This document shows positions 12,162-26,651 of a stretch of DNA of 64,000 bases, one piece after another. The stretch covers positions 372,001 to 436,000 of the forward strand of contig NZ_MQUC01000003.1 in the NCBI RefSeq assembly GCF_002994045.1, given 5' to 3'. The stretch's first letter is position 1. Every line of letters begins with the position of its first letter. A program made the position numbers and the translations under genes. This DNA is from Nonlabens agnitus (GTDB lineage Bacteria; Bacteroidota; Bacteroidia; Flavobacteriales; Flavobacteriaceae). A model generated the notes under the pieces. That model was given only the letters and a program-made list of their open reading frames with translations, was not told the origin of the DNA and did not search any database.

Positions 12162-12176
12162 TTTTACTATTTCTGT

Positions 12177-12220
12177 CAAATATGACACTTTCGCGAAAGC
12201 GAAATTGTAACAATAGTTAC
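12177..12220 (-). promoter_or_regulatory. Island promoter 1 (yeeE-like): Crp/Fnr-type site plus -7 box
   Basis: Palindrome GTAAC-N4-GTTAC at 12207-12220, 22 nt, then CATATTTG (-7 box, complement of 12177-12184). A palindromic repeat copy (12186-12201) lies between them. The palindrome ends 45 bp before the start codon at 12161. Confidence 0.75.
12186..12201. repeat. Flavobacterial palindrome, copy 3 (one mismatch)
   Basis: CACTTTCGCGAAAGCG, second base changed. It sits inside promoter 1, in the 22-nt spacer between operator and -7 box. Confidence 0.75.
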
Positions 12221-12232
12221 TTTATTCCATAT

Positions 12233-13270
12233 TTAATAACTAGTATCATCCAGCTTTACGGTACCGTTGAAAGTTTTATATAGAAAGATGAAATATCCAG
12301 CAAGCAGTGGTGCACCAATCAATACGATGGTCAACATAATTCCCAACGATTTTTGTGAAGAAGCTGCATTATAGATCGTTACATTATATTCAGGATCGAT
12401 GGAGGATGGCAGCAATACTGGATAAAGTTGAAAAGCTACCAGCATTAACAAAAAGGACATGGTCAAAGAAGAGAACACCAATGCATTGATGTATTTTTTC
12501 TTTGAAACAAGTCTAGGCACATTTGCTATTGCCAGCAACGCCAAGACAGGGAGAACGAACGATATGGGTTGCTCTTTAAAATTTTCTGTAACACCTTCTA
12601 CAAAAATGAGGGTATACAAAGACATTACAGAAAAACTAACAATAAAAAATATCATACCTCTCTTGAGTAAAAAAGTTAACCTAGCATGTAGGCGGCCTTC
12701 TGTTTTAAGCAATAAAAATATAGCTCCTTGCGTCATAAATAGAGCTACTGTAGTTATTCCTACCATTATGGCATAGGGCGATAGAAAGTGAAAGAAAATA
12801 CCTCCTTCAAAGCTTAGATCCTTACCTATTGCAAACCCTTGAATAATATTGCCCAACACGACACCTAATAAAAAGGAGATCAAAATGTTGGAAAGGGAAT
12901 AGACAATATCCCATGTTTTGCGCCACCAGGGCATTTCTTCTGCACTTCTAAATTTGATGGAAATGGACCTCAAAACCAGAAGCATAAGAAATAACATAAA
13001 TGGCACGTACATCGATGAGAGCATGGTAGCATACATGACTGGAAAACCTGCAAACAATGCACCACCACCTATGACCAAAAATACCTGATTTGCGTCCCAA
13101 AGTGGTCCTATTGCATTGATGGCGATACGTCTGCTCAAATCCTTTCTGAAAAATAAGTGCCAGGCACCTGCACCATAGTCAAATCCTTCTAGAATGGCAT
13201 AGCCAGAGAACAATAAGCCGACAACTAAAAACCACAGCGTGGGATAATCCAGTCCTAAAAAAGTTTCCAT
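12233..13270 (-). CDS. cydB: Cytochrome bd oxidase subunit II
   Basis: 345 residues, 8-9 membrane segments. METFLGLDYPTLWF, GYAILEGFDYGAGAWHL and AINAIGPLWDANQVFLV are signature segments of CydB. With CydA it forms the quinol oxidase that reduces O2 to water using hemes b558, b595 and d. bd oxidases are known to keep working in the presence of sulfide, which blocks heme-copper oxidases. It starts 9 bp after cydA and shares the cydA promoter. Confidence 0.95.
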   Translation of the reverse strand: METFLGLDYPTLWFLVVGLLFSGYAILEGFDYGAGAWHLFFRKDLSRRIAINAIGPLWDANQVFLVIGGGALFAGFPVMYATMLSSMYVPFMLFLMLLVLRSISIKFRSAEEMPWWRKTWDIVYSLSNILISFLLGVVLGNIIQGFAIGKDLSFEGGIFFHFLSPYAIMVGITTVALFMTQGAIFLLLKTEGRLHARLTFLLKRGMIFFIVSFSVMSLYTLIFVEGVTENFKEQPISFVLPVLALLAIANVPRLVSKKKYINALVFSSLTMSFLLMLVAFQLYPVLLPSSIDPEYNVTIYNAASSQKSLGIMLTIVLIGAPLLAGYFIFLYKTFNGTVKLDDTSY

Positions 13271-13279
13271 AGTGATTTG

Positions 13280-14635
13280 TTATACGTGTTTCAAAAATTC
13301 GTCTGGATTTTGCGCTTCTTCATAAGGGCCATGTTTGATCTTCTTATTCATGAAGTAAAGAAATAGAAGAAAAAGTATGCTATACACTATTAAGAATAAA
13401 ATCAACGAAAAGAGAATCTGATTGGAAGAGACTTCCTGTGAGAAACCTTCGTCCGTTCTTAAGTGCCCGTATACAATCCAAGGTTGTCTTCCCATCTCTG
13501 CAGAGAACCAACCGACTTGATTTGCTATCTGGGGTAGAAGCACTGAAAATGCAAAAAACTTAAGGAGCCATCTCTTATCAAATAGCGTCCCACGCCACCA
13601 CAGGAAACTGGCATAAAGTGTTAGACCTATAAGGATCATGCCTATGGAAATCATAATGTGATAAAATTGGAATACGGCATTTACCTGACTAGGTCTATCC
13701 CTTTTAGGAAAGGCGTTGAGTCCAGTAATAGGCTCTTGAAAATCCTGATGCACGAGGAATGATAAACCGCCTGGGATTTTAACACCTGTGACTTCTTGGG
13801 TTTCATTATCCACCCAACCGAATAGGTACAAATCTGCCGGTGCTGATGCTTCATAATGTCCTTCCATAGCGGCAAGTTTTGCTGGCTGGTTTACGGCAAC
13901 ACCATCTGCAGAGCTATGGCCAGAAATAAGTTGCGTCAATGAAATGATAGTGGCTAGAACCAAGGCTATCTTGAACGCCTTTTTAGAAATTTCTACATAT
14001 CGTCCTTTAAGTAAATAATAGGCATGGACACTTAAAACTAAAAATGCCCCTGCCAAAAAAGCCCCTTGCCATACATGAATGATTCTATCAACACTGGAAG
14101 GATTAAATACCATGGCCCAGAAGTCAGTCACCTCAGCTCGAGCATTGAAACCTTCTCCTACAATGTGATAACCGGCTGGAGTTTGTTGCCAGCTGTTTGC
14201 TACCACTATCCACACGGCAGAAAACATGGAGCCTAAGAATACTCCAATGGTTGATATAAAATGCACCCTGGGCGACACCCGATTCCACCCAAATAATAAG
14301 ATGCCCAAAAATGCACTTTCTAAACCAAATGCAAATAGGCCTTCTGCCGCAAGCGCGCTACCAAAAATATCACCTACATACCTTGAGTATACCGACCAGT
14401 TGGTACCAAATTCAAATTCCATGATGATACCGGTGGCAACACCTATCCCAAATGTTATTGCGAAAATCTTTAACCAGAATCGTGTCAGTATTTCATATTG
14501 TTTATTGCCAGTCTTCAAGTACATCCCTTCAAAGAACACCATGATCAACCCAAGACCTATGCTTAGAGGTGGATAGATATAATGAAAAGCTATAGTAAAG
14601 GCAAACTGAATTCTAGCAAGGATTTCTGTGTCCAT
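13280..14635 (-). CDS. cydA: Cytochrome bd oxidase subunit I
   Basis: 451 residues from ATG 14635 (MDTEILARIQFAFTIAFHYIYPP); an upstream in-frame start at 14671 is not needed. His ligands are visible in AFHYIYPPLSIGLG (heme d/b595) and IHVWQGAFLAGAF (b558), the Met ligand region in WFSAEMGRQPW. It is clearly shorter than E. coli CydA (522 aa), consistent with a short Q-loop form. Inner membrane, quinol oxidation at the periplasmic face. Its promoter carries an operator with one mismatch (GTATC for GTAAC), 50 bp before the start codon. Confidence 0.95.
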   Translation of the reverse strand: MDTEILARIQFAFTIAFHYIYPPLSIGLGLIMVFFEGMYLKTGNKQYEILTRFWLKIFAITFGIGVATGIIMEFEFGTNWSVYSRYVGDIFGSALAAEGLFAFGLESAFLGILLFGWNRVSPRVHFISTIGVFLGSMFSAVWIVVANSWQQTPAGYHIVGEGFNARAEVTDFWAMVFNPSSVDRIIHVWQGAFLAGAFLVLSVHAYYLLKGRYVEISKKAFKIALVLATIISLTQLISGHSSADGVAVNQPAKLAAMEGHYEASAPADLYLFGWVDNETQEVTGVKIPGGLSFLVHQDFQEPITGLNAFPKRDRPSQVNAVFQFYHIMISIGMILIGLTLYASFLWWRGTLFDKRWLLKFFAFSVLLPQIANQVGWFSAEMGRQPWIVYGHLRTDEGFSQEVSSNQILFSLILFLIVYSILFLLFLYFMNKKIKHGPYEEAQNPDEFLKHV

Positions 14636-14655
14636 GGGGGCTTTAAATTTGACTC

Positions 14656-14699
14656 TAAAGTTAAAAATCAACTTTTAACTAAAGTGTAACAAGAGATAC
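14656..14699 (-). promoter_or_regulatory. Island promoter 2 (cydAB): Crp/Fnr-type site plus -7 box
   Basis: On the minus strand GTATC-TCTT-GTTAC (14686-14699, one mismatch to the palindrome), 22 nt, TAACTTTA (complement of 14656-14663). 50 bp between operator and the cydA start. Confidence 0.75.
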
Positions 14700-14817
14700 T
14701 TATTTCCAGTAAAGATTGCAGTAGCATGATGGTAGAAAGGTGGGAGCCTCAAAAGTGCATTGCTTGACTACTTGCGAATTCTGATTTTTAAATTACGCAA
14801 CTATAATTGTAGAAGAG

Positions 14818-14955
14818 ATGGTATTTACAAGAAAACTTTATTTAACTACAGCTGTAGTTAGAGGCTTTATTTTTATTCTACTAACCATACTGTTTTACTT
14901 TCTCTTTTTGAGCGCAAAAAGAAAAAGGTCACGATGTAAATTCATGACCTTCTGA
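14818..14955 (+). CDS. Possible 45-aa single-span membrane protein
   Basis: ATG 14818 to TGA 14953-14955. One hydrophobic segment (VVRGFIFILLTILFYFLFL) followed by a strongly basic tail (SAKRKRSRCK). It lies divergent from cydA in a 342-bp gap and overlaps the terminator of the minus-strand SQR-like gene, which argues against it. It does not look like CydX. Coding status uncertain. Confidence 0.25.
   Translation: MVFTRKLYLTTAVVRGFIFILLTILFYFLFLSAKRKRSRCKFMTF
14843..14858. other. 16-bp perfect palindrome AACTACAGCTGTAGTT
   Basis: Perfect dyad in the gap between cydA and the SQR-like gene. It also forms codons in the doubtful 45-aa frame. Could be an operator; no regulator is suggested by context. 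Confidence 0.35.
14925..14953 (-). terminator. Terminator of the SQR-like gene
   Basis: Minus strand AAGGTCA .. TGACCTT followed by TTTCTTTTT, 25 bp after the SQR-like stop codon. Confidence 0.65.
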
Positions 14956-14977
14956 AATATCCCTTTGCTTTTAAGTT

Positions 14978-16285
14978 TTACACATCTATACCCTTCAACA
15001 TCTTGTTCCAGTATAGATAGGGAAGCATGAATTTTTTAAGCATCCATAAACGCCAGTGCTCTTTTGAACTGTCTGAGATAAACATTTGTTTGAGCTTAGG
15101 GTCTGGTGTGAAGTTGTTGTCGTAATCAAATTCTGCCAGTACCATCTTTCCATAATCAGTGACTAGAGGGCAAGATGAATAACCATTATAAGATTTAGAA
15201 CCTAATTTATCTGTCTGAATCATTAAGTTAATATTATCCACAACAACTGGGACTTGCTTTCTAATTGCCGCACCTGTTTTTGCTGTAGGTAAGGCAGCAA
15301 CATCACCTAAACTGAAGATGTTTTTAAATTTATTGTGCTGCATGGTATGCTTGTTCACATCGACCCAACCAGCTTCATTGACTAAAACGGATTCTTTGAC
15401 GAATTTAGGTGCTACACTAGGTGGAGCGGTATGAAGCATATCGTAATGAATACCGTAGCGTTTCCCATCACGAATTACTTTTACATCTTTATAATTATAT
15501 TGAAATGCCTTGTCAATAAATTTTCCTTCGTCTTGGCCAGACATTACCACACAACCACCAGCTGTTACATCCTTTGCCAGTTCGTACCAGGCAATTTGCT
15601 TTTCTGCATCTACGGCCACCAGCTTATGATGAAACCTAAGATTGATGTCTTTGCGGTCTACCACTTTCATGAGAGTTTTCGCAATTTCCTTGACTCCAAA
15701 AATCACTGATCCCGCAGTGGCAAAAACTACATTAGATTTATCTCTAACACCTGTTTTTCTGAAGTGACTATCTGCTAAGTACATTATTTTTTGAGGCGCG
15801 CCGCCACATTTAATGGGCGTTGTAGGTTGTGTGAATAATGCTGTACCACCCTTAAAGTTCTTTATCACATTCCACGTGTGGACTGGATCTGTGTAATTGC
15901 TACATACAACACCTTTGTCCATGGCATCGCCTAAACCTAGCACAAGACTAAAGTCATAGGCTAAACCTGGTGCAACTACTAAATAGTCATACGTGACAGC
16001 GCCATGATTGAGAGTTAAAACTGCGTTATTGTCAGGATCAAAACCGGTTGCTTTATCCTTAATCCATTTGACACCCTTAGGCATAATCGATGCCATGGGC
16101 TTACCAGTTTTTTCATAGTCATAGGTACCAGCTCCCACTAGAGTCCATGCGGGTTGGTAAAAATGCGTTTCTGCAGGTTCAATGATAGCGATGCTATTGG
16201 ATATTTTTTGCTGTAATAGTTGAGCTGCGGTCATAATTCCAGCGGTCCCGCCGCCTATGATCAGTACTTGATGATGCGTTGCCAT
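14978..16285 (-). CDS. Sulfide:quinone oxidoreductase-like FAD flavoprotein
   Basis: 435 residues. N-terminal dinucleotide-binding motif VLIIGGGTAGIM, FAD-binding SLGDVAALPTAKTGAAIRKQ near residue 340. The sequence around Cys160 (TTPIKCGGAPQKIMYL) and YGIHYDMLHTAPP match the SQR branch that includes mitochondrial SQOR. SQR oxidises sulfide, passes electrons to quinone and leaves persulfide on a thiol acceptor at the inner membrane. Cys128 and Cys160 are present, but where SQOR has G-D-C the sequence reads G-D-V, so the third redox cysteine seems absent. The reaction may therefore differ or use another Cys (GGCVVMSG). Own promoter with a perfect operator 51 bp upstream. Confidence 0.75.
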   Translation of the reverse strand: MATHHQVLIIGGGTAGIMTAAQLLQQKISNSIAIIEPAETHFYQPAWTLVGAGTYDYEKTGKPMASIMPKGVKWIKDKATGFDPDNNAVLTLNHGAVTYDYLVVAPGLAYDFSLVLGLGDAMDKGVVCSNYTDPVHTWNVIKNFKGGTALFTQPTTPIKCGGAPQKIMYLADSHFRKTGVRDKSNVVFATAGSVIFGVKEIAKTLMKVVDRKDINLRFHHKLVAVDAEKQIAWYELAKDVTAGGCVVMSGQDEGKFIDKAFQYNYKDVKVIRDGKRYGIHYDMLHTAPPSVAPKFVKESVLVNEAGWVDVNKHTMQHNKFKNIFSLGDVAALPTAKTGAAIRKQVPVVVDNINLMIQTDKLGSKSYNGYSSCPLVTDYGKMVLAEFDYDNNFTPDPKLKQMFISDSSKEHWRLWMLKKFMLPYLYWNKMLKGIDV

Positions 16286-16306
16286 AGTATGTCTTTATAA
16301 TTCTCT

Positions 16307-16350
16307 TAAATGTAAATAGCTCTAATCAGAATATGTGTAACTGTTGTTAC
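16307..16350 (-). promoter_or_regulatory. Island promoter 3 (SQR-like gene): Crp/Fnr-type site plus -7 box
   Basis: GTAAC-N4-GTTAC at 16337-16350, 22 nt, TACATTTA (complement of 16307-16314). 51 bp between operator and the start codon at 16285. Confidence 0.85.
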
Positions 16351-16371
16351 AGATCTCTTTTTTCTAATTTT

Positions 16372-16899
16372 TCAAAAAGCATGACCAATACCTAATCCAA
16401 ATGTTGTTGTACTGAACCCGTCAAAACGCTGGTCATAAAATAATGTGGGCATTACATAAAATCCATTTGCTATATCAAATTCATATTCTATGCCCACTCG
16501 AGCCAGAAAAAAAGATTCATTTTTTTCTAATTCTACACCTGGCCCCAGACTGATTACAATACCATTATCTAAGTGATAAAGTCCATCCAGCGTTAAGACT
16601 AATGGATTCACACGTTCAATAGTCTCATTATTGTTTTTAGTAACTACAAAGTTTTCTATTTCAACATCATTATGCAGACCAATGCCCCATTGATGGTTGA
16701 ACCAATAATCTAGATCAAGACCCCAAGAAGGGATATATAAGTTGCCGTCGATCCCATCGCTGTTGATGAAAGTATGACCTATAATAGCGGCTATACGCAG
16801 CCCCTTTGTATTCGTCTGTTGTTCAATGCGATGATGTTGTTGCGCTAGTGATACCTGCGTTGCGCATAGAGAAATAATCAGGAAAAATACCGTTTTCAT
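16372..16899 (-). CDS. Outer-membrane beta-barrel-like protein in the sulfide island
   Basis: 175 residues. Signal peptide (..LCATQVSLAQ). Alternating hydrophobic/polar strands rich in Gly and aromatics (GLRIAAIIGHTFI, WGIGLHNDVEIENF, TTFGLGIGHAF) and a C-terminal Phe are typical of a small outer-membrane barrel. Its ATG follows directly on the stop codon of the DUF2490 gene (16900), so both are translated from one mRNA. Function unknown; membership in the predicted sulfur regulon is the only clue. Confidence 0.65.
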   Translation of the reverse strand: MKTVFFLIISLCATQVSLAQQHHRIEQQTNTKGLRIAAIIGHTFINSDGIDGNLYIPSWGLDLDYWFNHQWGIGLHNDVEIENFVVTKNNNETIERVNPLVLTLDGLYHLDNGIVISLGPGVELEKNESFFLARVGIEYEFDIANGFYVMPTLFYDQRFDGFSTTTFGLGIGHAF

Positions 16900-17610
16900 T
16901 TATAGGGTATAGGTTATACTGGTTTCCCAGATATTATTGGTTATGGAACTATTTTCCCTAGGTATATTGATACGATGAAAACCTGAGGAGATAGTGATGT
17001 GTTCGCTTTCGCGAAAGCGTAATCCTAGAAAGATCCAATTTTGATCTATTTTTTGGGGTTGAAATCTTTTTTGAAAGTCGAGAAAGACCTCGTCATAGGC
17101 TAACACTGAAATGTTATCTGCACTAAATAGCGGTATGGTAATAATTAGGCGATATCGCAATCGTCCAGAGTAGTCTGTTTTTGAAATGATATGACGATTA
17201 TCTGTTGAATCAATTGTTTCTCTGAACCTCTCTTCAAACCGAAGCCTATGGGAAATCTCAAATTGATTGATGCTGTGTTGTATGAATAGTTGTTGCCATA
17301 GATTATTCTCTTTAAAATCAAGAGGCGTGGAAAAATTTGAATAACTATAGTTTTTGATGTAGGAATATCCTGTTGCCGCTGTTATAGACTTATCCAATCT
17401 ATATTCGATAGAGGGTCTTAAAACAATTTGCTCCCAATCTTTAATAAAATTAGTCCTACGGAAATTAAACTCAGATCTTACAAACAAGCGTTCTTTTACG
17501 TCCATTTTAATAGATAAGGTATTCCAACTGCTGTTGTGCTCATATCGCTCTCTCTGTGCCTGAACAGATATTGTAAATAATAAGAGCGTTACTAATAATC
17601 TATAGTGCAT
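16900..17610 (-). CDS. DUF2490 family outer-membrane protein
   Basis: 236 residues from ATG 17610 (MHYRLLVTLLLFTISVQAQ, a clear signal peptide). A longer in-frame start at 17676 would run through the operator and -7 box and is rejected. The pattern RSEFNFRRTNF .. LRPSIEYRLDKSITAATGYSY .. HRLRFEERF is that of DUF2490, predicted barrels of unknown role. A CGCTTTCGCGAAAGCG palindrome inside the gene (17004-17019) encodes RFRES. First gene of a two-gene unit with the barrel protein at 16372. Confidence 0.75.
   Translation of the reverse strand: MHYRLLVTLLLFTISVQAQRERYEHNSSWNTLSIKMDVKERLFVRSEFNFRRTNFIKDWEQIVLRPSIEYRLDKSITAATGYSYIKNYSYSNFSTPLDFKENNLWQQLFIQHSINQFEISHRLRFEERFRETIDSTDNRHIISKTDYSGRLRYRLIITIPLFSADNISVLAYDEVFLDFQKRFQPQKIDQNWIFLGLRFRESEHITISSGFHRINIPRENSSITNNIWETSITYTL
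17004..17019. repeat. Flavobacterial palindrome, copy 4 (coding)
   Basis: Perfect copy inside the DUF2490 gene; the frame used encodes RFRES. Confidence 0.9.
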
Positions 17611-17628
17611 CTGTAATTGTTTCAAGAG

Positions 17629-17672
17629 TAAAATTATTGAATGCTTGATGCACAGGGCGTAACCCGAGTTAC
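17629..17672 (-). promoter_or_regulatory. Island promoter 4 (DUF2490 operon): Crp/Fnr-type site plus -7 box
   Basis: GTAAC-N4-GTTAC at 17659-17672, 22 nt, TAATTTTA (complement of 17629-17636). 48 bp between operator and the start at 17610. Confidence 0.85.
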
Positions 17673-17693
17673 ACAACCTGATATTTTAGAAAT

Positions 17694-17726
17694 AAAAAGA
17701 GCAGGTCATCTAGAGCTGCTCTTTCA
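17694..17726 (-). terminator. Terminator of the rhodanese-racemase operon
   Basis: Minus strand AAAGAGCAG .. CTGCTCTTT followed by TTAT. Confidence 0.7.
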
Positions 17727-17731
17727 TTAAA

Positions 17732-17749
17732 AACCAACTATAGTTGGTT
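17732..17749 (-). terminator. Palindromic hairpin AACCAACTATAGTTGGTT
   Basis: Perfect 18-bp dyad followed on the minus strand by TTTAAT, 14 bp after the racemase stop; probably the first of two tandem terminators. Confidence 0.5.
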
Positions 17750-17763
17750 CGCATCAAGTTTAC

Positions 17764-18447
17764 TTATGCACTTAAAATGAAGTCTACTGCCATCTTTATG
17801 TGCAAATCTGTAGTAGAAAGTAACGGTATATTGATGTCACTTTCTTTAATGATGATAGGTAGCTCTGTGCATCCCAATATGACTCCATTCACACCTCGTT
17901 TTTTAAGTAATTGTATTTGATTGAGAAAAAAATCTTTTGCTTGCTCTGAGAATATCCCTTGCGTCAATTCTAAAGAAATGTAATCATGTGCGAGTGAATG
18001 GTACTTTGTCTCTGGAATGATGGTTTCTATTTGGTATTTTTCGTTTAATATTTTAGGGATGAACCCTTTGGTCATCGTCGGCCGGTTGCCCAGTAAACCT
18101 AATTTAAAAAGGCCTCTTTTTTTAGCTTCTGTTCCCATTGCATCTGCAATATGTAAGATTGGTATATTTATTTGGGGCTTTACAAAATCATACACCATAT
18201 GGGGTGTGTTTGCACAGATAACTATAGCTGCTGCACCTGCTTTCTCCAGTTTTAATGCAGTATCAAGATATGATGCATTGATTTTCTCTGTATTTTGGGA
18301 ACGCATCAATTCTATATTCATGCTGTACAATAACAAGGGTGGATTACCCTGTGCACCTATCTGTTCGCCTACCATTTCATTAATTTTTCTATAGTACACA
18401 ACGGTAGAGTGGTAGGATGTGCCGCCTATAAGTCCCAATAACTTCAT
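17764..18447 (-). CDS. Aspartate/glutamate racemase family protein (YgeA-like)
   Basis: 227 residues. MKLLGLIGGTSYHSTVVYY start, first catalytic Cys in AIVICANTPHMV, second in VILGCTELP: both cysteines of the cofactor-independent racemase family are present. It would interconvert L/D-aspartate, glutamate or related amino acids in the cytoplasm. It overlaps the upstream cytochrome gene by 4 bp (ATGA) and is the last gene of an operon starting with a rhodanese, an unusual context for a racemase. Confidence 0.85.
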   Translation of the reverse strand: MKLLGLIGGTSYHSTVVYYRKINEMVGEQIGAQGNPPLLLYSMNIELMRSQNTEKINASYLDTALKLEKAGAAAIVICANTPHMVYDFVKPQINIPILHIADAMGTEAKKRGLFKLGLLGNRPTMTKGFIPKILNEKYQIETIIPETKYHSLAHDYISLELTQGIFSEQAKDFFLNQIQLLKKRGVNGVILGCTELPIIIKESDINIPLLSTTDLHIKMAVDFILSA

Positions 18448-19442
18448 TTTGCATTGGTGTTATCAAAATCTATAGCCCATATACCGCGTACTTCGTTTAT
18501 GTCATATCCCATCGCCTTATCATTAGGATACAAATTCCTTATGGTTGCAATCACTTCAGGGTTTATTGTTTTATTAGGACTACCGTGACATTGCAAGCAC
18601 ATAGAATTTGTAATTATGGGATAATAAAAAACATGGCGCCCGTTCTCGAGTTTTGTTATAGGCAGATAGTCTTCGCCATTCGCAACTGCTTTTTTAAACT
18701 GTTCAATAACCTTTAACTCTTTATCGTTAGCTGCGTTCTGCGGATTTCTAGCTTTGTCACTCACCCTTCTTATTCTAGCATTCTGAGCGGTTGCCATGCT
18801 GTCTGTCAAGGGATAGGCGCGTGCGTTACAAAATAAAACTGCCTCAAGAGTTCCTTTTTTTTGGATGGTGCCCATTAGATTTTTACCTAGTTCCTTTTTG
18901 GTGTTTAAAGCATATTCCATCCCTTTTTCTGTTGGTGTTTTCTTTTGGTCCCTATTAATAGCACCTACTTTTATTCCGTCATTATGATAATTCATTTTGC
19001 CCTTGCCATCTTTTAAATGCTCTTTGAACCACTCTGGCTCGTCGACCTTGTAATCGTACATGTAATTTGCAATCGCGCGGATTTCATTCTCTTCAAATGA
19101 CTGATAGGGCATTAAGCCAAAACGTCTAATGGCACCTTTCATTTTTGATTTTTCCTGACTAGGTTGCTGCACAAAATTCCAGATAGCATTTGCAAACTGT
19201 TCTTTAGTAGTACTATCATTAAGATAATGTGATTTTATCGCGACCATTGGTGATGCTATACGTTCCTTGTGATCTGTACTGGAATTGTGACATGAATAGC
19301 ACTTCTGCTCCATCAATAGCTTTCCATCATTAACTGGACCCTTATTAGTATCTACCGTGGTGAGTGATTGATATGATGATTTTTGCTTTTGATGACAGCT
19401 GTTGAGCAGTATAAGCGAAAATAAAATGATGAAATATTTCAT
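18444..19442 (-). CDS. c-type cytochrome lipoprotein with DUF3365 domain
   Basis: 332 residues. The signal ends LILLNSC (lipobox). Two heme c sites: CYSCH (about residue 48) in an N-terminal cytochrome c domain and CLQCH (about 283) in a C-terminal DUF3365 domain (GMEYALNTKKELGKNLM..). Periplasmic, membrane-anchored electron carrier; DUF3365 proteins are often proposed as heme-based sensors or redox proteins. Overlaps the neighbouring genes by 4 bp on both sides, so it is tightly coupled to the HMA and racemase genes. Role in sulfur oxidation is inferred from context. Confidence 0.8.
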   Translation of the reverse strand: MKYFIILFSLILLNSCHQKQKSSYQSLTTVDTNKGPVNDGKLLMEQKCYSCHNSSTDHKERIASPMVAIKSHYLNDSTTKEQFANAIWNFVQQPSQEKSKMKGAIRRFGLMPYQSFEENEIRAIANYMYDYKVDEPEWFKEHLKDGKGKMNYHNDGIKVGAINRDQKKTPTEKGMEYALNTKKELGKNLMGTIQKKGTLEAVLFCNARAYPLTDSMATAQNARIRRVSDKARNPQNAANDKELKVIEQFKKAVANGEDYLPITKLENGRHVFYYPIITNSMCLQCHGSPNKTINPEVIATIRNLYPNDKAMGYDINEVRGIWAIDFDNTNAK

Positions 19443-19714
19443 AAACTCATATTTATTTTACCAGTAGCACAGCTAATAAAAGACATTACTTTATTGGATA
19501 TCGTATTTTCTATTCCTACTGGTGGATAGCCCATCTGGATCAATGTACGTTCTGCAATAGCAAGATCATTAACGCTGTCGTATGTCAACGTTACCTCAGA
19601 GCCATCAGCGGCCATTTGTACACTATTGACGCCGTTTATTCTCAGTAGCTTGACCGCGATGCCATTGATACAGCCGCTACATTTTACATTTTGTAATTGG
19701 AGAGTCGTCTTCAT
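19439..19714 (-). CDS. Heavy-metal-associated (HMA) domain protein
   Basis: 91 residues from ATG 19714 (MKTTLQLQNVKCSGCINGIA). C-S-G-C is the metal- or thiol-binding CxxC of HMA domains; the usual Met before it is Val-Lys here. A further Cys lies in the C-terminal tail (SFISCATGK). Members shuttle Cu(I) or Zn, but in an operon between a rhodanese and a cytochrome the CxxC could carry sulfane sulfur; that is inference. Starts 4 nt after the rhodanese stop codon. Confidence 0.75.
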   Translation of the reverse strand: MKTTLQLQNVKCSGCINGIAVKLLRINGVNSVQMAADGSEVTLTYDSVNDLAIAERTLIQMGYPPVGIENTISNKVMSFISCATGKINMSL

Positions 19715-19718
19715 AATT

Positions 19719-20078
19719 CTATTTTTTATATGGCCATGCCATGTAACCACCCTTTAGGTCATAAATCTGTTCAAACCTCAATGCGTCTAATTTTCTAGCT
19801 GCCTGCTGGCTACGATTACCAGAACGGCAATAGAGATATACAGGCCTATTTTTATCTAGCTTGCTAAATTCTTCATTAAAAATTTCCTGCTGGAAGAAGT
19901 CTATGTTCAATGCATTTTCAATGGCACCTTCCTTAAATTCATTTGCAGTGCGTACATCTACTAATTGAACATTCTCGTTTGTAATTGCCTCTTTAAACTC
20001 TGATGCTGAAAGGATGCTTAGGTTAGGGGCAGTTTGCGCGTTAGCGCCAAAGATTGAGCTTAAGAAAGTCATGATCAA
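19719..20078 (-). CDS. Single-domain rhodanese, probably exported
   Basis: 119 residues. The active-site loop CRSGNRS follows YLYC; substrate-side VDVRTANEFKEG. The N-terminus MTFLSSIFGANAQTAP looks like a short export signal, suggesting a periplasmic sulfurtransferase. It moves sulfane sulfur from thiosulfate or persulfide to a thiol or cyanide. First gene of the rhodanese-HMA-cytochrome-racemase operon. The operator upstream has one mismatch. Confidence 0.85.
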   Translation of the reverse strand: MIMTFLSSIFGANAQTAPNLSILSASEFKEAITNENVQLVDVRTANEFKEGAIENALNIDFFQQEIFNEEFSKLDKNRPVYLYCRSGNRSQQAARKLDALRFEQIYDLKGGYMAWPYKK

Positions 20079-20113
20079 GATTTTGATATTATTAATAATT
20101 ATTTGTTCATTAG

Positions 20114-20157
20114 TAAAGTTATGCCGTGTGATCCTTCAATTAAGTAATCATTGTTAC
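20114..20157 (-). promoter_or_regulatory. Island promoter 5 (rhodanese operon): Crp/Fnr-type site plus -7 box
   Basis: On the minus strand GTAAC-AATG-ATTAC (20144-20157, one mismatch), 22 nt, TAACTTTA (complement of 20114-20121). 65 bp between operator and the start at 20078. Confidence 0.8.
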
Positions 20158-20165
20158 CATGGCAT

Positions 20166-20196
20166 AAAAAAAAGCGACGATTACCGTCGCTTCTTT
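20166..20196 (-). terminator. Terminator of the peroxiredoxin gene
   Basis: Minus strand AAGCGACG-GTAAT-CGTCGCTT followed by TTTTTT. Confidence 0.85.
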
Positions 20197-20228
20197 ACTA
20201 CCAACCTTAATTGAAACAGACTAATAAC

Positions 20229-20888
20229 TTAAAGTGATTTTTTTGCTATATACCAGTCTACTTTTTCACAAGTATTATCAGCAATGCGAGCATTCATCTC
20301 ATCTAAAGTCTTTGGTGGTGGTATAATGACCTTATCACCTTTCTTCCAGTCTAATGGCATAGCCACGCCGTGCTCATCTGAAACCTGTAAAGCTTCCAAC
20401 GCTCTTAAGATCTCGTCCATGTTTCTACCTACGTTGAGTGGGTAGTACATGATTAAACGAATTTTCTTTTTTGGATCTATAAAGAATACCGCTCTTACAG
20501 CTGCAGTCTCACTCTCGTTGGGTTGTAACATCCCGTAGAGTTTTGAAACTTTCATGTCAATGTCTGCAATGATGGGGAAATCAAAATAAACTCCCGTGTT
20601 CTCCCTTACATTATTCACCCAACCCAAGTGTGAGTGAATACTATCAATGCTTAGTCCCAGTAGTTCTGTATTGAGAGCGTCAAATTCTTGTTTACGAATT
20701 GCAAAACCGCTCATCTCAGTAGTACAGACAGGCGTAAAGTCTGCTGGATGTGAGAACATCACTATCCATTTGTCCTTTGCAAAATCTGACATTTGGATTT
20801 CTCCCTTGGTTGTTTTCGCTTTAAAATCTGGTGCTTGATCACCGATTCTAGGCATTGGGTTTACATTGCCTAATTCTGAATTTTCCAT
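20229..20888 (-). CDS. 1-Cys-type (Prx6 group) peroxiredoxin
   Basis: 219 residues from ATG 20888 (MENSELGNVNPMPRIGDQAPDF). An in-frame start at 20975 would include the operator and is rejected. The peroxidatic Cys lies in HPADFTPVCTTEM; the C-terminal arm DWKKGDKVIIPPPKT marks the Prx6 group. It reduces peroxides, and persulfides are also plausible substrates. Its promoter has a perfect operator 54 bp upstream. The methyltransferase gene is divergent and shares this intergenic region. Confidence 0.9.
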   Translation of the reverse strand: MENSELGNVNPMPRIGDQAPDFKAKTTKGEIQMSDFAKDKWIVMFSHPADFTPVCTTEMSGFAIRKQEFDALNTELLGLSIDSIHSHLGWVNNVRENTGVYFDFPIIADIDMKVSKLYGMLQPNESETAAVRAVFFIDPKKKIRLIMYYPLNVGRNMDEILRALEALQVSDEHGVAMPLDWKKGDKVIIPPPKTLDEMNARIADNTCEKVDWYIAKKSL

Positions 20889-20912
20889 AGTATTTGCTTT
20901 AATATTGTTATC

Positions 20913-20956
20913 TAAAATTAAGGATAATCGGCACCTTGTTAGGTAACAGGTGTTAC
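20913..20956 (-). promoter_or_regulatory. Island promoter 6 (peroxiredoxin): Crp/Fnr-type site plus -7 box
   Basis: GTAAC-N4-GTTAC at 20943-20956, 22 nt, TAATTTTA (complement of 20913-20920). On the other strand the same operator is followed after 21 nt by TATTTTTC and ends 47 bp before the divergent methyltransferase ATG. Confidence 0.85.
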
Positions 20957-21003
20957 ATAAACCTGATAAAATCAATCTATTTTTCTGACCATAAAAACAG
21001 CTT

Positions 21004-21615
21004 ATGAATTACCAGGAGACCTTTAATTTAATAGGCGGTGTTGATATTTACATAATTGACCAAATCTTGAAAGGACGTTATACAAATCGACCTTCCATTC
21101 TAGATGCAGGCTGTGGTAGAGGTCGTAATTTAAAGTGGTTTTATGCCAATGATCTCGATATTTATGGAATAGATACAGATGAAAATGTTCTCGCTTTCGC
21201 GAAAGCGGAATACCCAAAATCTGCCAAAAATTTTAATGTTGGAAATTTAGAAAAGTTACCCTACCACAATAACAATTTTGATCATATCATATGTTGTGCT
21301 GTTTTGCATTTTGCTCAAAGCGAAGCCCAGTTTACCGCAATGTTTGATGAGCTGGTTCGTGTACTCAAACCAAATGGCTCGTTGCTCATTAGGATGGCAT
21401 CAAATATTGGGTTAGACGGTAACGCACCAAAATTAATGTATAAGGAAAATGGACAAAAAGGTACGTATTATTTAACTCGTGAAAGGATTGATAACTTGGT
21501 ACAGGAGTTTGATATAGAACTCATTGAACCTATTAAAACCACTAATGTTCAAGATGAAAGAGCGATGACAACGCTTGTGTTTAAAAAGAAACTCAAAACA
21601 AAAAGCGGTAAGTAA
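21004..21615 (+). CDS. Class I SAM-dependent methyltransferase
   Basis: 203 residues. SAM-binding motif I ILDAGCGRGRN, acidic motif II YGIDTDEN, motif around FDHIICCAVLHF, then a domain typical of small-molecule methyltransferases (UbiE/TehB-like). Substrate unknown; a thiol, selenite or tellurite methylase would fit the neighbours. The only plus-strand gene inside the sulfide island, divergent from the peroxiredoxin and sharing its operator region. A palindromic repeat inside (21192-21207) encodes AFAKA. Confidence 0.8.
   Translation: MNYQETFNLIGGVDIYIIDQILKGRYTNRPSILDAGCGRGRNLKWFYANDLDIYGIDTDENVLAFAKAEYPKSAKNFNVGNLEKLPYHNNNFDHIICCAVLHFAQSEAQFTAMFDELVRVLKPNGSLLIRMASNIGLDGNAPKLMYKENGQKGTYYLTRERIDNLVQEFDIELIEPIKTTNVQDERAMTTLVFKKKLKTKSGK
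21192..21207. repeat. Flavobacterial palindrome, copy 5 (coding)
   Basis: Perfect copy inside the methyltransferase gene, encoding AFAKA directly after the motif II strand. Confidence 0.9.
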
Positions 21616-21647
21616 TTGCCACTTCATGATCCTTGTACCAATTAATC

Positions 21648-23066
21648 TTACTTTAAGGTAGACGGGCACACATAGTCTGTGGTTTCTACTCCTGCTTCCT
21701 TGATGGCCTTGAAACCACCTTGAACATCTATTAAGTTATGGATACCGCGACTTTTTAAAATAGAAGCAGCTATCATACTGCGGTAGCCACCTGCACAGTG
21801 CACATAGAAGGTTTCATTATCAGGGTACTCTGCTAAGTGGTCGTTGATCTCGGTAAGAGGTGTATTGTGGGCATTTAAAACGTGCTCGCTTAGGAATTCA
21901 CTTTTCTTACGAACATCGAAAACAGTCATTTCATTTTGAGCGTCTTTTTCAGCTTGTTTAAATTCTGCGGCTGGAATAGAAGTTACCGTGTCATATTCTT
22001 TACTCGCTTTTTTCCAAGCTTCAAAACCACCATCAAGATATCCCAACGTATTGTCAAAACCAACTCGGGACAAACGCGTGATGACTTCTTCAATACGATC
22101 TTTATCTGCAATCAATAGGATGGGCTGCTTTACGTCCTTAATTAAATCACCTACCCAAGGGGTAAAACTACCGTCGATACCAATAAAAATGGATCCAGGA
22201 ATGTGCCCTTTAGCAAAATCGTTTTGATGTCTCGTATCAAGCATTACGGCTCCTGTTTCATTAGCCGCCGCTTCAAAGGCATCTGGAGATAGAGCGTTCT
22301 CGCCTTGTGCGATAACCTCATCAATATCTCTATAACCTTCCTTATTCAACTTAACATTCATAGGGAAGTAGGCAGGTGGTGGTAGTAAACCATCTGTCAC
22401 TTCTTTTATGAATTCCTCTTTAGTCATGTCTGCCCGCAGGGCATAGTTCATCTGTTTTTGATTCCCTAAGGTATCTACGGTTTCTTTCATCATATTCTTA
22501 CCACAGGCAGAGCCTGCGCCGTGTGCTGGATATACGGTCACGTCATCTGATAGCGGCATGATCTTGTTTCTTAAACTATCGTATAGAGTGCCCGCAAGTT
22601 CCTCTTGCGTCATATGTGCTGCTTTTTGCGCAAGATCTGGTCGTCCCACGTCTCCTAAAAACAAGGTGTCTCCTGTAAATAACGCATAGTCCTTCCCGTT
22701 TTTGTCCTTTAATAGATAGGTGGTACTTTCCATGGTATGGCCTGGTGTGTGCAGGACCACAAATGTGAGGTCGCCCAGTTTGAACTCTTGACCGTCTTTT
22801 GCGGTTATCGCTTTAAAGCTAGGATTTGCATTGGGTCCATAGATGATAGGTGCACCAGTTTTTTCTGATAACGTCACGTGGCCCGAAACGAAATCTGCAT
22901 GGAAGTGAGTCTCAAATATATATTTGATGGTTGCTCCATTTGATTCTGCTTTGTCGATATAGGGTTGCACCTCTCGTAAGGGGTCAATTATGGCCACTAC
23001 ACCTTTACTTTCAATGTAATAGGCCCCTTGCGCCAGACATCCGGTATAAATTTGTTCGATTTTCAT
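21648..23066 (-). CDS. CstB-like persulfide dioxygenase-rhodanese fusion
   Basis: 472 residues. N-terminal metallo-beta-lactamase domain with HFHADF (54-59), HTPGHTMES, LFTGDTLFLGDVGR and VYPAHGAGSACGK: the mononuclear-iron persulfide dioxygenase type. The middle rhodanese domain lacks the catalytic Cys (LLIADKDRIEE); the C-terminal rhodanese has it (YVHCAGGYRS), and an extra Cys ends the protein (DYVCPSTLK). The same order is found in Staphylococcus CstB, which turns persulfides into thiosulfate or sulfite. Convergent with the methyltransferase gene; own promoter with a perfect operator, 92 bp upstream because a palindromic repeat sits in the leader. Confidence 0.9.
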   Translation of the reverse strand: MKIEQIYTGCLAQGAYYIESKGVVAIIDPLREVQPYIDKAESNGATIKYIFETHFHADFVSGHVTLSEKTGAPIIYGPNANPSFKAITAKDGQEFKLGDLTFVVLHTPGHTMESTTYLLKDKNGKDYALFTGDTLFLGDVGRPDLAQKAAHMTQEELAGTLYDSLRNKIMPLSDDVTVYPAHGAGSACGKNMMKETVDTLGNQKQMNYALRADMTKEEFIKEVTDGLLPPPAYFPMNVKLNKEGYRDIDEVIAQGENALSPDAFEAAANETGAVMLDTRHQNDFAKGHIPGSIFIGIDGSFTPWVGDLIKDVKQPILLIADKDRIEEVITRLSRVGFDNTLGYLDGGFEAWKKASKEYDTVTSIPAAEFKQAEKDAQNEMTVFDVRKKSEFLSEHVLNAHNTPLTEINDHLAEYPDNETFYVHCAGGYRSMIAASILKSRGIHNLIDVQGGFKAIKEAGVETTDYVCPSTLK

Positions 23067-23100
23067 AATTATAGAATTTGAAATTTGTTATTCTTTTTTA

Positions 23101-23116
23101 CGCTTTCGCGAAAGCG
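23101..23116. repeat. Flavobacterial palindrome, copy 6
   Basis: Perfect copy in the 5' leader of the CstB-like gene, between its -7 box and start codon. Confidence 0.9.
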
Positions 23117-23128
23117 ATATTGTCATAC

Positions 23129-23172
23129 TAAAATTAAAATAGGAAATAATTCCAGAGAGTAACACAGGTTAC
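23129..23172 (-). promoter_or_regulatory. Island promoter 7 (CstB-like gene): Crp/Fnr-type site plus -7 box
   Basis: GTAAC-N4-GTTAC at 23159-23172, 22 nt, TAATTTTA (complement of 23129-23136). The operator overlaps the last codons of the exporter gene ending at 23169. Confidence 0.85.
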
Positions 23173-23969
23173 TTAACTAGTTCTTTATAAATGATGTAAA
23201 CTCCCATAACTAAAACGAACCAACCAAATCCTTTTTTTAATTTGCTGCCGTCTATAAAGTTGTTGAGCCAGATGCCAAGGAAGATTCCAACGATGGATAA
23301 TGCCGAAAACGAAAGCAGGAAAGCCCAATCAATATCCAAATTTTGAACATCGCCCAGAAAACCGATCAACGATTTTATGGCAATAATGAAAAGGGAAGTG
23401 GCCACCGCTTTTTTCATAGGTAATTTTGCTAGTAGAACCAGTGCAGGTATGATTAGAAAGCCTCCGCCAGCACCTACTATACCTGTTATTGTCCCTACTA
23501 CTACACCCTCAATCACAATAAGTGGATAATTGTAGGTGATTTCAACATCTTCTTCAAGTTCTTTACGCTTGTTGCGTATCATCGAGATGGAAGCCAATAA
23601 CATGATGATGGCAAAAAATAACATGATCACCAGGTTTTTGGTAACCATGAAATCGCCTACTTCAAAAAGTTCTACTGGTATAGCTGGTATCAAAAATGCT
23701 CTTGTAAGATATACTGCGATAAAAGCTGGTATAGCAAAGATGATAGCTGTTTTAAAATCTACCATCCCTTTCATCATATTCTTAATAGCACCTACAAGGG
23801 ACGTGGCTCCTACAACAAAAAGTGAATATGCTGTCGCTACCACTGGATTAAGCATCAGGGCATAGACTAGAATGGGAACCGTCAATATAGAACCGCCACC
23901 GCCAATTAATCCTAAAACCACTCCAATAAGAAGAGCTCCAACGTACCCAAGAATTTCTATGATTTCCAT
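23169..23969 (-). CDS. TauE/SafE family sulfite (anion) exporter
   Basis: 266 residues, about 8 membrane segments, with the repeated glycine-rich motif GLIGGGGSILTVPILV (N-terminal) and GIVGAGGGFLIIPALV (middle), the hallmark of TauE/SafE. It would export sulfite or related sulfur oxyanions made by the CstB-like enzyme. Inner membrane. Perfect operator 49 bp upstream and a full TAGATTTG -7 box. Confidence 0.9.
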   Translation of the reverse strand: MEIIEILGYVGALLIGVVLGLIGGGGSILTVPILVYALMLNPVVATAYSLFVVGATSLVGAIKNMMKGMVDFKTAIIFAIPAFIAVYLTRAFLIPAIPVELFEVGDFMVTKNLVIMLFFAIIMLLASISMIRNKRKELEEDVEITYNYPLIVIEGVVVGTITGIVGAGGGFLIIPALVLLAKLPMKKAVATSLFIIAIKSLIGFLGDVQNLDIDWAFLLSFSALSIVGIFLGIWLNNFIDGSKLKKGFGWFVLVMGVYIIYKELVK

Positions 23970-23988
23970 TTGTCTATTTATTATATGA

Positions 23989-24032
23989 CAAATCTATCTT
24001 TAGGTATCTCTACACACGGTAACTGATGTTAC
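23989..24032 (-). promoter_or_regulatory. Island promoter 8 (TauE/SafE): Crp/Fnr-type site plus -7 box
   Basis: GTAAC-N4-GTTAC at 24019-24032, 22 nt, TAGATTTG (complement of 23989-23996, perfect TAnnTTTG). The operator overlaps the 3' end of the crp/fnr gene. Confidence 0.85.
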
Positions 24033-24655
24033 ATGACTTCAATAAAACTGCGGTGCAACCTTATTTTATTATCATTTTCCATCCTTTTAAGTAATCGTGA
24101 AATTACAACGCGGCTTGTATGAAGATCACTGGCAATATCTTTATGGGTAGTGTAGATATGCTTGCTATTTAAAATACTAATTTTATCCTCAAGGTATTTC
24201 TCCAGTCGTTCGTCCATATTATTGAACGCAATGTTATCAATACTTTCAAGCATCTCCATCATACGCTCATGATAACTGGAAAATACAAAGTTGCGCCAGG
24301 TTTTATATTTACTAGACCATTCTTCCATTTTTCCAATAGGTATCATCAATAGCTTTACTGGTGTTTCTGTAACAGCATGTATCTCGCTTTTTGTATTACC
24401 CAAACAGCAGGTCATGGTCATTGCACAGGTATCTCCCTTTTCTAGATGATATAATAGTAACTCGTCACCATCACTATCAGGCCGCATTATTTTGATACTA
24501 CCAGAAAGTAATAAAGGCATTGATTTTATGTATTGTCCTGGTCTGATTAGATCTTGACCATCTGGTACATCCATAAACGTTGCCACTTGATTTATTTCTT
24601 CAATAAGTGCAGGCTCAAATAAAGACCCGTAATGCGTTTTAATTTCTTGTATCAT
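24029..24655 (-). CDS. Crp/Fnr-family regulator, probable activator of the sulfide island
   Basis: 208 residues. N-terminal cyclic-nucleotide-binding-like beta barrel (about 20-115), long dimer helix, C-terminal winged helix with recognition helix in LHTSRVVISRLLKRM. It has no FNR-type N-terminal cysteine cluster. Its three cysteines (77, 83, 84) lie together in GDTCAMTMTCCLGNTKSEI, in the effector pocket; thiol or metal sensing is possible. Where Crp and FNR have Glu in the recognition helix (SRE), this has Val (SRV), in line with a site other than TGTGA/TTGAT. Its gene overlaps the DUF983 gene by 17 bp and is transcribed from a promoter with the shared operator, hence autoregulated. Confidence 0.9.
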   Translation of the reverse strand: MIQEIKTHYGSLFEPALIEEINQVATFMDVPDGQDLIRPGQYIKSMPLLLSGSIKIMRPDSDGDELLLYHLEKGDTCAMTMTCCLGNTKSEIHAVTETPVKLLMIPIGKMEEWSSKYKTWRNFVFSSYHERMMEMLESIDNIAFNNMDERLEKYLEDKISILNSKHIYTTHKDIASDLHTSRVVISRLLKRMENDNKIRLHRSFIEVM

Positions 24656-25037
24656 TATTTACTTCTTTGGCAATTTTTGGATCATATTTAAAAAATAAAT
24701 GTGCCCAAATGGACTTAGATACTGCACCAATGTATGGAAAAGTCAATGCTAGTATGCACACTATCGAAATAAAAATGGTCAAAGGGTCGTCTGCCATTCC
24801 TAGAATTAATAGAATAACATAAGTGGCGACTGCAAAGGCTATACCCACAGCATAACAAACGTACATGGAACCAGTATAAAAACTAGGTTCAATGGAGTAT
24901 TTTAAATCGCACTTTGGGCAGCGTTCACACACATGGTTCATTTTTGAAAACTTGTATGGATTTGCTTCTAAGAATTCTCCTTGTCTACATCGCGGACATT
25001 TCAGAAATAAAAGACTGTATAGATATGATCTCTTCAC
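24639..25037 (-). CDS. DUF983 membrane protein with zinc-ribbon
   Basis: 132 residues. Two CxxC pairs at the N-terminus (LKCPRCRQGEF and CERCPKCDLKY) and two membrane segments (YAVGIAFAVATYVILLIL; IFISIVCILALTFPYIG), the DUF983 pattern. Function unknown. First gene of the unit that encodes the Crp/Fnr regulator, overlapping it by 17 bp; the cysteines make a redox or metal role plausible. Confidence 0.85.
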   Translation of the reverse strand: MKRSYLYSLLFLKCPRCRQGEFLEANPYKFSKMNHVCERCPKCDLKYSIEPSFYTGSMYVCYAVGIAFAVATYVILLILGMADDPLTIFISIVCILALTFPYIGAVSKSIWAHLFFKYDPKIAKEVNNDTRN

Positions 25038-25054
25038 TACGATTATGTTTATTT

Positions 25055-25098
25055 CAAAAATATTCCCTTAAGATATTTGATTCAGTAACAGATGTTAC
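25055..25098 (-). promoter_or_regulatory. Island promoter 9 (DUF983-crp/fnr): Crp/Fnr-type site plus -7 box
   Basis: GTAAC-N4-GTTAC at 25085-25098, 22 nt, TATTTTTG (complement of 25055-25062, perfect TAnnTTTG). Drives the regulator's own operon; the operator touches the end of the integrase pseudogene. Confidence 0.85.
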
Positions 25099-26351: not shown

Positions 26352-26426
26352 AGTTGTTCGTCTTTAAAGGTTAAACTTTATGCGACGAATGTCAAATCAA
26401 CTATGGTTCAGTGTTTTAAAGCAATC

Positions 26427-26553: not shown

Positions 26554-26577
26554 GATGCTCTTGTGAGTTTAATTTAG

Positions 26578-26651
26578 TGACCTCGACAGGATTCAAACCT
26601 GTAACCTCTTGAGCCGTAATCAAGTGCGCTATTCAGTTGCGCCACGAGGCC
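26578..26651 (-). tRNA. tRNA-Arg (anticodon ACG)
   Basis: 74 nt without CCA. Acceptor GGCCTCG/CGAGGTC, D-arm GCGC..GCGC, anticodon arm CTTGA-TTACGGC-TCAAG with anticodon ACG, T-arm ACAGG-TTTGAAT-CCTGT, discriminator A. The integrase pseudogene lies on its 3' side. I found no second copy of the tRNA 3' end that would mark the other end of an island. Confidence 0.95.

Follow-up and report, generated by a model that had tools for sequence, protein, structure and literature searches.

A 64-kb stretch of the Nonlabens agnitus genome (positions 372001 to 436000 of a contig labeled C4; the genome comprises 3.2 Mb in four contigs), here called the window, carries nine promoters built on the palindrome GTAAC-N4-GTTAC. 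These palindromes are probably operators of a Crp/Fnr-type activator that is predicted to control sulfide detoxification together with cytochrome bd oxidase. The evidence consists of the fixed spacing between palindrome and promoter box, the near confinement of spaced sites to two sulfur gene clusters, their co-occurrence with the regulator and their conservation in related genomes, and the location of the window cluster on an island whose empty site is present in a close relative.

All nine palindromes lie on the minus strand where a preliminary description of the window had placed them. Seven are perfect and two, at 14686 and 20144, have one mismatch. The gap of 22 nt to a −7 box, claimed in the same description, is exact in all nine; the box reads TAnnTTT[A/G] in eight and CATATTTG in the ninth. 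Site 1 (25055..25098; operator 25085-25098, −7 box 25055-25062) precedes a DUF983-crp unit; site 2 (23989..24032; operator 24019-24032, box 23989-23996) overlaps the 3′ end of crp and precedes a TauE permease gene; site 3 (23129..23172; operator 23159-23172, box 23129-23136) precedes a gene for a persulfide dioxygenase (PDO)-like protein with metallo-beta-lactamase (MBL) and rhodanese domains; and site 4 (20913..20956; operator 20943-20956, box 20913-20920) precedes a 1-Cys-type peroxiredoxin gene. Site 5 (20114..20157; operator 20144-20157, one mismatch; box 20114-20121) stands before a rhodanese-HMA-cytochrome c-racemase series, site 6 (17629..17672; operator 17659-17672, box 17629-17636) before genes for a DUF2490 protein and a 175-amino-acid protein, and site 7 (16307..16350; operator 16337-16350, box 16307-16314) before a sulfide:quinone reductase (SQR)-like gene. 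Site 8 (14656..14699; operator 14686-14699, one mismatch; box 14656-14663) precedes cydAB, and site 9 (12177..12220; operator 12207-12220, box CATATTTG at 12177-12184) precedes a truncated YeeE-type gene. With at most one mismatch allowed, the palindrome occurs 11 times in the window against 1.35 expected, a count reached in 0 of 100 shuffles; the two additional copies, at 5098 and 59244, lack a matching box 22 nt away.

According to the available part of PMC9723704, positions −12 to −5 are occupied by the TAnnTTTG box in Flavobacterium psychrophilum. With the box at that position, the spacer extends from −34 to −13 and the operator, 14 nt long, from −48 to −35, so that the operator is centered at −41.5, in agreement with the center near −41 (the class II position) that had been proposed for these sites. 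A TTTG element placed N18 before the box would fall on the first four spacer bases, −34 to −31. TTTG is missing from this −33 slot, directly after the palindrome, in all nine window sites, as had been reported, and both tRNA genes in the window have TTTG-N18-TAnnTTTG upstream, also as reported. TTTG fills the slot in 0 of 12 sites of the whole genome, in 1 of 94 sites from related loci, and in 0 of 38 others (32 from 30 sampled family loci plus six from the window). Class II activation involves a fixed operator center at −41.5. With an operator centered near −41.5 and a −33/−35 element that is weak or absent, the nine promoters have the predicted features of this class. A dimer on GTAAC-N4-GTTAC would sit beside sigma at the TAnnTTT[G/A] box and replace the missing TTTG element. 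The E. coli class II promoters of CRP and FNR likewise have an operator centered at −41.5 and abutting sigma; they differ in that the promoter here is of the TAnnTTTG type, the operator is GTAAC-N4-GTTAC, and the cAMP contacts and iron-sulfur ligands are not kept in the protein.

The same position could instead serve a repressor or dual regulator that blocks RNA polymerase when bound and is released by sulfur species, as are SqrR, BigR, and CstR. We regard this as very improbable: the operator reaches only to −35, which places it upstream of the −7 box and next to the missing −33 element, and a fixed center at −41.5 fits class II activation. The known persulfide sensors CstR, SqrR, and BigR do repress, according to the available text of PMC9774590, but FisR, in the same text, activates such genes.

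A genome-wide scan found the spaced site almost only at two sulfur clusters. Besides the seven perfect palindromes of the window, the genome has two more, at C4 51606 and 54727, for a total of nine. The full 44-nt pattern (operator, spacer, and box) has 13 matches with at most one mismatch, of which 12 are in the two clusters. Of the eight perfect matches, six belong to the window and two to the second cluster; of the five with one mismatch, the window has three and the second cluster one (53098), and the last is at 2734533. The match at C4:2734533 lies inside an open reading frame (ORF) for a TonB receptor and was taken as chance; the same 44-mer is present in a close relative, G490. The claim that no such site exists outside 12.2-25.1 kb therefore holds for the window and fails for the genome, where the sites at C4 51606, 53098, and 54727 again precede sulfur genes. 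We rejected chance as the origin of the sites on the basis of the shuffles and the strict scan. The genome has at least 12 regulon promoters.

The second cluster (locus L040) lies about 344 kb from the first. Its genes run in the order Crp/Fnr gene (crp2), TauE, rhodanese, MBL-rhodanese, and two Sulf_transp (YeeE-type) genes, the last two assigned by Pfam and the rest by homology to window proteins. The sites at C4 51606, 53098, and 54727 precede the TauE gene, the MBL-rhodanese gene, and the first YeeE-type gene, respectively. A tRNA-Arg gene (tcg; L040:5153-5227) is located 1.7 kb from this cluster. The mean pairwise identity of spacers among the 12 sites is 0.26, and that of the two half-sites is 0.94 and 0.97. 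It is scarcely credible that the promoters owe their common spacing to duplication within the island, with no regulator involved. The cluster is indeed compact and mobile, but the spacers are unrelated while the half-sites are kept, and family-wide the same spacing precedes unrelated genes and co-occurs with the regulator.

We compared the site and the regulator across a single sample of 299 Flavobacteriaceae genomes, as the preliminary description had suggested, and found that the two co-occur. The perfect full pattern was present in 229 of the 299 genomes and the reversed pattern in 7. Sites were found in 180 of 187 genomes with a regulator match better than 1e-64, in 48 of 88 with a weaker match (1e-64 to 1e-20), and in 1 of 24 with no match, a group that includes many small genomes (any match versus none, Fisher P 3e-15, with ancestry not corrected for). 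In six genera, one sampled species had a regulator match and the other had none. Sites occurred only with the regulator in five of these (g20, g43, g46, g78, and g97); in the sixth, g112, which has a weak match (2.5e-45), sites were absent from both species.

The spacing is conserved as well. Among 119 distinct palindromes in 63 related loci, 94 have TAnnTTT[A/G] at 22 nt on one side and none has it on both; 16 have it at 23 nt (14 of them the reverse orientation), and every other distance accounts for 0 to 4. When target genes in the 63 loci were taken without selecting for sites, and at most one mismatch was allowed, 106 of 229 genes had a site at 22 nt, compared with 0 to 4 at each other spacing from 16 to 28. 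The fraction with a site differed among genes; it was found for SQR (7/7), DUF983 (16/16), DUF2490 (3/3), TauE (26/30), PDO (29/42), and peroxiredoxin (7/10). Among other ORFs of at least 200 amino acids, 9 of 541 had a site, and eight of those nine belong to families seen repeatedly in the regulon (OEP, SulP, PF03601, or FA_hydroxylase types). Four loci (L072, L073, L079, and L080) have a 21-nt spacer and a shared TTTAAACG before the box, in promoters of 576- to 577-amino-acid proteins; these are possibly a variant geometry. The proteins are SulP-like by length and place, Pfam having been run on L065 and L087 only. In a phylum-wide sample of 198 genomes scanned with a loose gap of 12 to 34, there were 51 matches (four from the genome studied here), 32 with a spacing of 22 and 7 with a spacing of 23.

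The candidate regulator is a protein of 208 amino acids (24029..24655, minus strand). It belongs to the Crp/Fnr superfamily by its beta-roll (PF00027, 38.3 bits; cut-off, 27.5) and by its helix-turn-helix (PF13545), which scored 26.2 bits against a cut-off of 27 as a single protein and 28.4 bits, above the cut-off, in the genome search. Among solved chains, 3dv8, NtcA, and CRP are nearest to it in sequence, and it aligns to 3dv8 and NtcA through the helix-turn-helix. Among the 120 matches listed of 7953, annotation in relatives, where there is any, is "Crp/Fnr family transcriptional regulator" or similar. We aligned 69 homologues and removed four distant paralogues (32-36% identity). The recognition helix is S-R-[VI]-V-[IV]-S-R in all 65 remaining orthologues, and S-R-V-V-I-S-R in the window regulator. 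Cysteines C77 and C83 are kept in 65 of 65 and C84 in 61, a cysteine pair as expected of a persulfide sensor. E. coli CRP contacts cAMP through Glu72 and Arg82, and FNR holds its 4Fe-4S cluster by four cysteine ligands. Neither arrangement was found here: when CRP was aligned by eye with the GD motif as anchor, Met79 occupied one contact position in 64 of 65 orthologues and Lys89 the other in 50 of 65, and the regulator has just three cysteines, C77, C83, and C84. Hence, C77 and C83 are the best candidate for the sensor of the signal, which would likely be persulfide or another sulfane-sulfur species acting on both cysteines in the beta-roll, near the place that cAMP takes in CRP. The C-x5-C spacing of this pair also appears in 3dv8. 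In an alignment made by eye, CRP Arg180 is kept and the Glu181 position is Val in 64 of 65 and Ile in 1 of 65, a pattern that fits the tie between these positions and the operator set out in the available part of PMC1274295.

The genome encodes two matching homologues of this regulator. The proteins of the window and the second cluster are 80% identical and share an identical recognition helix and all three cysteines. A third Crp/Fnr protein, at C4:2234026, was rejected as the regulator on account of a different recognition helix and the lack of a related site in its 3.2-kb locus. The earlier proposal that one activator, encoded at 24029-24655, drives all nine units is supported, with the amendment that "one" cannot be separated from "either or both," because two regulators have the same recognition helix. 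We infer that the island regulator and its paralogue may both act on the sites and exchange with each other. Alternatively, the two may by now respond to different signals (low oxygen and sulfide, for example), each driving only its own cluster. Each cluster does have its own crp gene, and 20% of positions differ, but the identical recognition helix, the three cysteines in both proteins, and the same operator and spacing in both clusters make such a division unlikely.

A number of results weigh against reading the sites as operators of a sulfide-responsive activator. The palindrome alone is no rarer when reversed (9 copies genome-wide versus 17 reversed) and, since the reversed form occurs 17 times, proves nothing by itself. 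With up to three mismatches, the reversed full pattern outnumbers the pattern (71+79, or 150, versus 23+29, or 52); for this reason, only the strict pattern is informative, and looser matches were not counted. In the phylum sample, the reversed control matched 36 of 198 genomes and the pattern 26 of 198, so that outside the family it is the concentration of matches at 22 nt, and not how many genomes match, that counts as evidence. In the family sample, a perfect site is missing from 7 of the 187 genomes that have a close regulator and present in 1 of the 24 that have no match. No site was found before crp2, and in relatives a site lies directly upstream of crp in 2 of 63 loci. Numerous orthologues in these loci are without a site: the fractions are 10/22 for rhodanese, 4/16 for YeeE, 1/8 for cytochrome c, 1/10 for HMA, and, at the strictness used, 0/2 for cydA genes, which may in part reflect operon position. 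The perfect palindrome is absent from 10 of the 63 loci, where the operators may be degenerate or elsewhere; these regulator-homologue loci are L076, L081-L084, L086, L090, L091, L093, and L101. Finally, C77 and C83 may be structural rather than sensory. The remaining two points, the operator predicted for HcpR2 and the efflux genes behind such sites in relatives, are weighed below with the alternatives that they favor.

An HcpR2-type nitrosative-stress regulator with heme/NO sensing might have been recruited to sulfur genes, with NO or nitrite as the signal. Cytochrome bd also withstands NO, in keeping with such a role. The same operator, GTAACnnnnGTTAC, was predicted in 2005 for HcpR2, a Crp/Fnr protein present in Bacteroides with hcp as its main target (Rodionov et al. 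2005, PMC1274295, as far as its available part goes). However, the genome studied here has no hcp gene (PF03063). In the phylum, hcp was found in 34 of 148 genomes, and 30 hcp loci, taken with about 1.5 kb on each side, contained neither a perfect operator nor a Crp homologue (E 1e-3). The position of CRP Glu181 is Val or Ile here and Pro in most HcpR2 proteins (PMC1274295, available part), and the targets are sulfide and persulfide genes plus cydAB. No HcpR-named chain appeared among the PDB matches of the regulator. An HcpR2-type regulator is improbable on these grounds.

The reach of the regulon in relatives bears on another alternative, namely, that the protein is a broader envelope/redox or efflux regulator for which sulfur genes are one target group and sulfide is not the main signal. 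We drew 30 family loci by pattern alone, as the first listed match of each of 30 genomes. Of their 32 sites, 12 are located before homologues of window-cluster genes, another 12 before OEP-type efflux genes, and the remaining 8 before other genes. The 63 and 30 loci together have 126 sites with spacing 22, and 30 of these precede genes without a window counterpart: 16 OEP-type outer-membrane efflux genes, 4 SulP permease genes, 3 genes for small 120-amino-acid proteins, 2 of fatty-acid-hydroxylase types, 1 PF03601 gene (presumably YeiH), 1 each that we take to be MauG-like and TlpA-like, and 2 short doubtful ORFs. Typing was by Pfam for 6 targets and by BLAST cluster for the rest. An example of OEP-type genes behind such sites is at L043:16983-20622, and the ORFs that follow an OEP gene in one locus look to us HlyD- and RND-type. 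A broader role is nevertheless rather improbable, as 12 of 13 strict matches in the genome studied here are in sulfur clusters, and the commonest targets in loci beside the regulator are TauE, PDO, DUF983, and SQR. The strict 44-nt scan found no site before an OEP-type efflux gene in this genome. These data support a regulon that also covers cytochrome bd, peroxiredoxin, and further proteins and that, in relatives, would include efflux proteins, SulP permeases, and others.

The genes behind the sites are all on the minus strand. The regulator gene probably forms one operon with the gene before it (24639..25037), whose product we take to be DUF983-like and which has no Pfam or NCBIfam match. 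The TauE/SafE-family permease (23169..23969; PF01925) is followed by the PDO-like protein (21648..23066; PF00753, and PF00581 in two stretches) and the 1-Cys-type peroxiredoxin (20229..20975, with a likely start at 20888, downstream of the box; PF00578 and PF10417, PRK13189 above cut-off). Between these two, an opposite-strand methyltransferase gene (21004-21615) has no site. The series behind site 5 comprises a single-domain rhodanese (19719..20078; PF00581), an HMA-domain protein (19439..19750; PF00403), a cytochrome c with a Tll0287-like domain (18444..19442; PF11845, PF13442), and an Asp/Glu racemase family protein (17764..18447; PF01177, TIGR00035 above cut-off). Next are the DUF2490 protein (16900..17676, with a likely start at 17610, downstream of the box; PF10677) and the 175-amino-acid protein (16372..16899), which has no Pfam or NCBIfam match. 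The SQR-like flavoprotein (14978..16285) matches PF07992, and its best NCBIfam match, type III SQR, scores 228.7 bits, below the cut-off of 525. Cytochrome bd oxidase subunits I (cydA, 13280..14671, with a likely start at 14635, downstream of the box; PF01654, 547 bits) and II (cydB, 12233..13270; PF02322, TIGR00203 above cut-off) come before the 5′ part of a YeeE/Sulf_transp gene (11841..12188, with a likely start at 12161), which is cut at the left junction of the island and scores 26.7 bits for PF04143 against a cut-off of 27. A longer paralogue of this truncated gene is present at L040:10786-11343. The spacer of the YeeE promoter (site 9) is largely a CTTTCGCGAAAG repeat, both here and in L184, and still measures 22 nt. 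The palindrome CGCTTTCGCGAAAGCG occurs 13 times in the window (for example, at 9320, 17004, 21192, 23101, 30887, and 35805); the copies at 17004, 21192, and 30887 are within ORFs, and a shorter form fills the YeeE promoter spacer in the window and in L184.

Taken as one pathway, the SQR would convert sulfide to persulfide, which the MBL-rhodanese dioxygenase and the rhodaneses would process; the TauE and YeeE transporters would carry products, and the peroxiredoxin and the c-type cytochrome would help. Cytochrome bd would sustain respiration once sulfide blocks copper oxidases. Indeed, E. coli bd oxidases resist sulfide and bo3 does not (PMC8657789, available part), and co-regulation of cydAB therefore makes simple sense. 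The bd oxidase is thus a sulfide-insensitive terminal oxidase in E. coli according to that text; the difference here is that the operator type before cydAB also precedes SQR-like and dioxygenase-like genes of the same island. A cydA match at E 1e-60 was found in 21 of 59 relatives searched (the studied genome included). Of eight same-genus cydA loci (at least 88% identity, own genome included; one is partial and one has internal stops), all eight have a site at 22 nt with 0 to 2 operator mismatches. A relative with 76% identity has a site at 23 nt, and 1 of 12 in a group with 34-41% identity has a site.

Cysteine-sensing control of sulfide- and persulfide-handling genes is known from CstR, SqrR/BigR, and FisR, which are CsoR-like, ArsR, and Fis-type proteins, respectively, in contrast to the Crp/Fnr type found here (PMC9774590, available part). 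In the accessible text of that review, the sulfide sensors named are CstR, SqrR, BigR, PigP, and FisR, none of Crp/Fnr type. The 2005 prediction for HcpR2 (PMC1274295, available part) shares with our system a Crp/Fnr protein and the operator GTAACnnnnGTTAC; it differs in the hcp target and in having mostly Pro at CRP Glu181, compared with no hcp, Val/Ile, and sulfur plus bd oxidase targets here. A partial literature search, several queries of which were weak, found neither a Crp/Fnr sulfide regulon of Bacteroidota nor a description of sulfide-handling control in this phylum. The regulon is likely novel, short of proof. A strict operator-promoter code throughout the family would permit regulon prediction in hundreds of genomes and would offer a natural system for studying class II activation on a TAnnTTTG promoter, with sulfide removal and cytochrome bd tied under one switch.

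The whole nine-site cluster lies on an island of 14.7 kb, from about 11848 to 26577 (to 26584), integrated at a tRNA gene. A tyrosine integrase split into two separate ORFs (25095..26351, minus strand; arm domain in 25890-26351, SAM-like and catalytic domains in 25095-25865; PF17293, PF13102, and PF00589) adjoins tRNA-Arg(acg) (26577..26651, minus strand), the insertion site, which contains an attR-like core at 26577-26584. The attL-like core GTGAGCTC (11848..11855) marks the left junction and matches the tRNA end at 7 of 8 bases; the core, GTGA[C/G]CTC, is short and imperfect, and the window has no other exact repeat of the tRNA end of at least 12 bases. The left junction was recognized only by comparison with G490, in which a terminator-like hairpin leads directly into tRNA-Arg(acg); 14.7 kb separates the same two elements in the window. 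This relative has the second cluster nearly unchanged (TauE 97% and YeeE 99% identical), but lacks a cydA match and every one of the nine window sites. The flanks differ as well: a gene at 10565-11680 is present only in the window, and a 615-amino-acid ORF beside the tRNA is present only in G490. The base composition of the island is not distinct by eye.

Islands targeted to tRNA genes commonly have, as this one does, a tyrosine integrase at the tRNA 3′ end, a short imperfect att-like repeat, and an empty site; this island is set apart by its regulator and nine promoters, which use the operator code of the host, and by an integrase split in two ORFs. The island would thus bring its own regulator and promoters in a code also used by the other cluster of the host, an example of a regulon moving with its regulator into a host already reading the same operator. 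We tentatively propose, at somewhat less than even chances, that these proteins are an undescribed, family-wide group of Crp/Fnr activators sensing persulfide through a C-x5-C pair, whose regulons travel as self-contained islands (combining regulator, nine prespaced class II promoters, sulfide detoxification, and a sulfide-proof oxidase) and plug into a resident regulator of the same operator. Integrase relatives were found at L090 (50% and 28% for the two pieces of the window integrase) and L078 (36%) among 66 loci searched. In UBA3611 (L057), the cluster is also beside tRNA-Arg(acg), with the same neighbor; hence, this place may have received insertions repeatedly. A further copy of the 3′ end of the tRNA lies about 120 bp on in that locus (L057:8794-9555).

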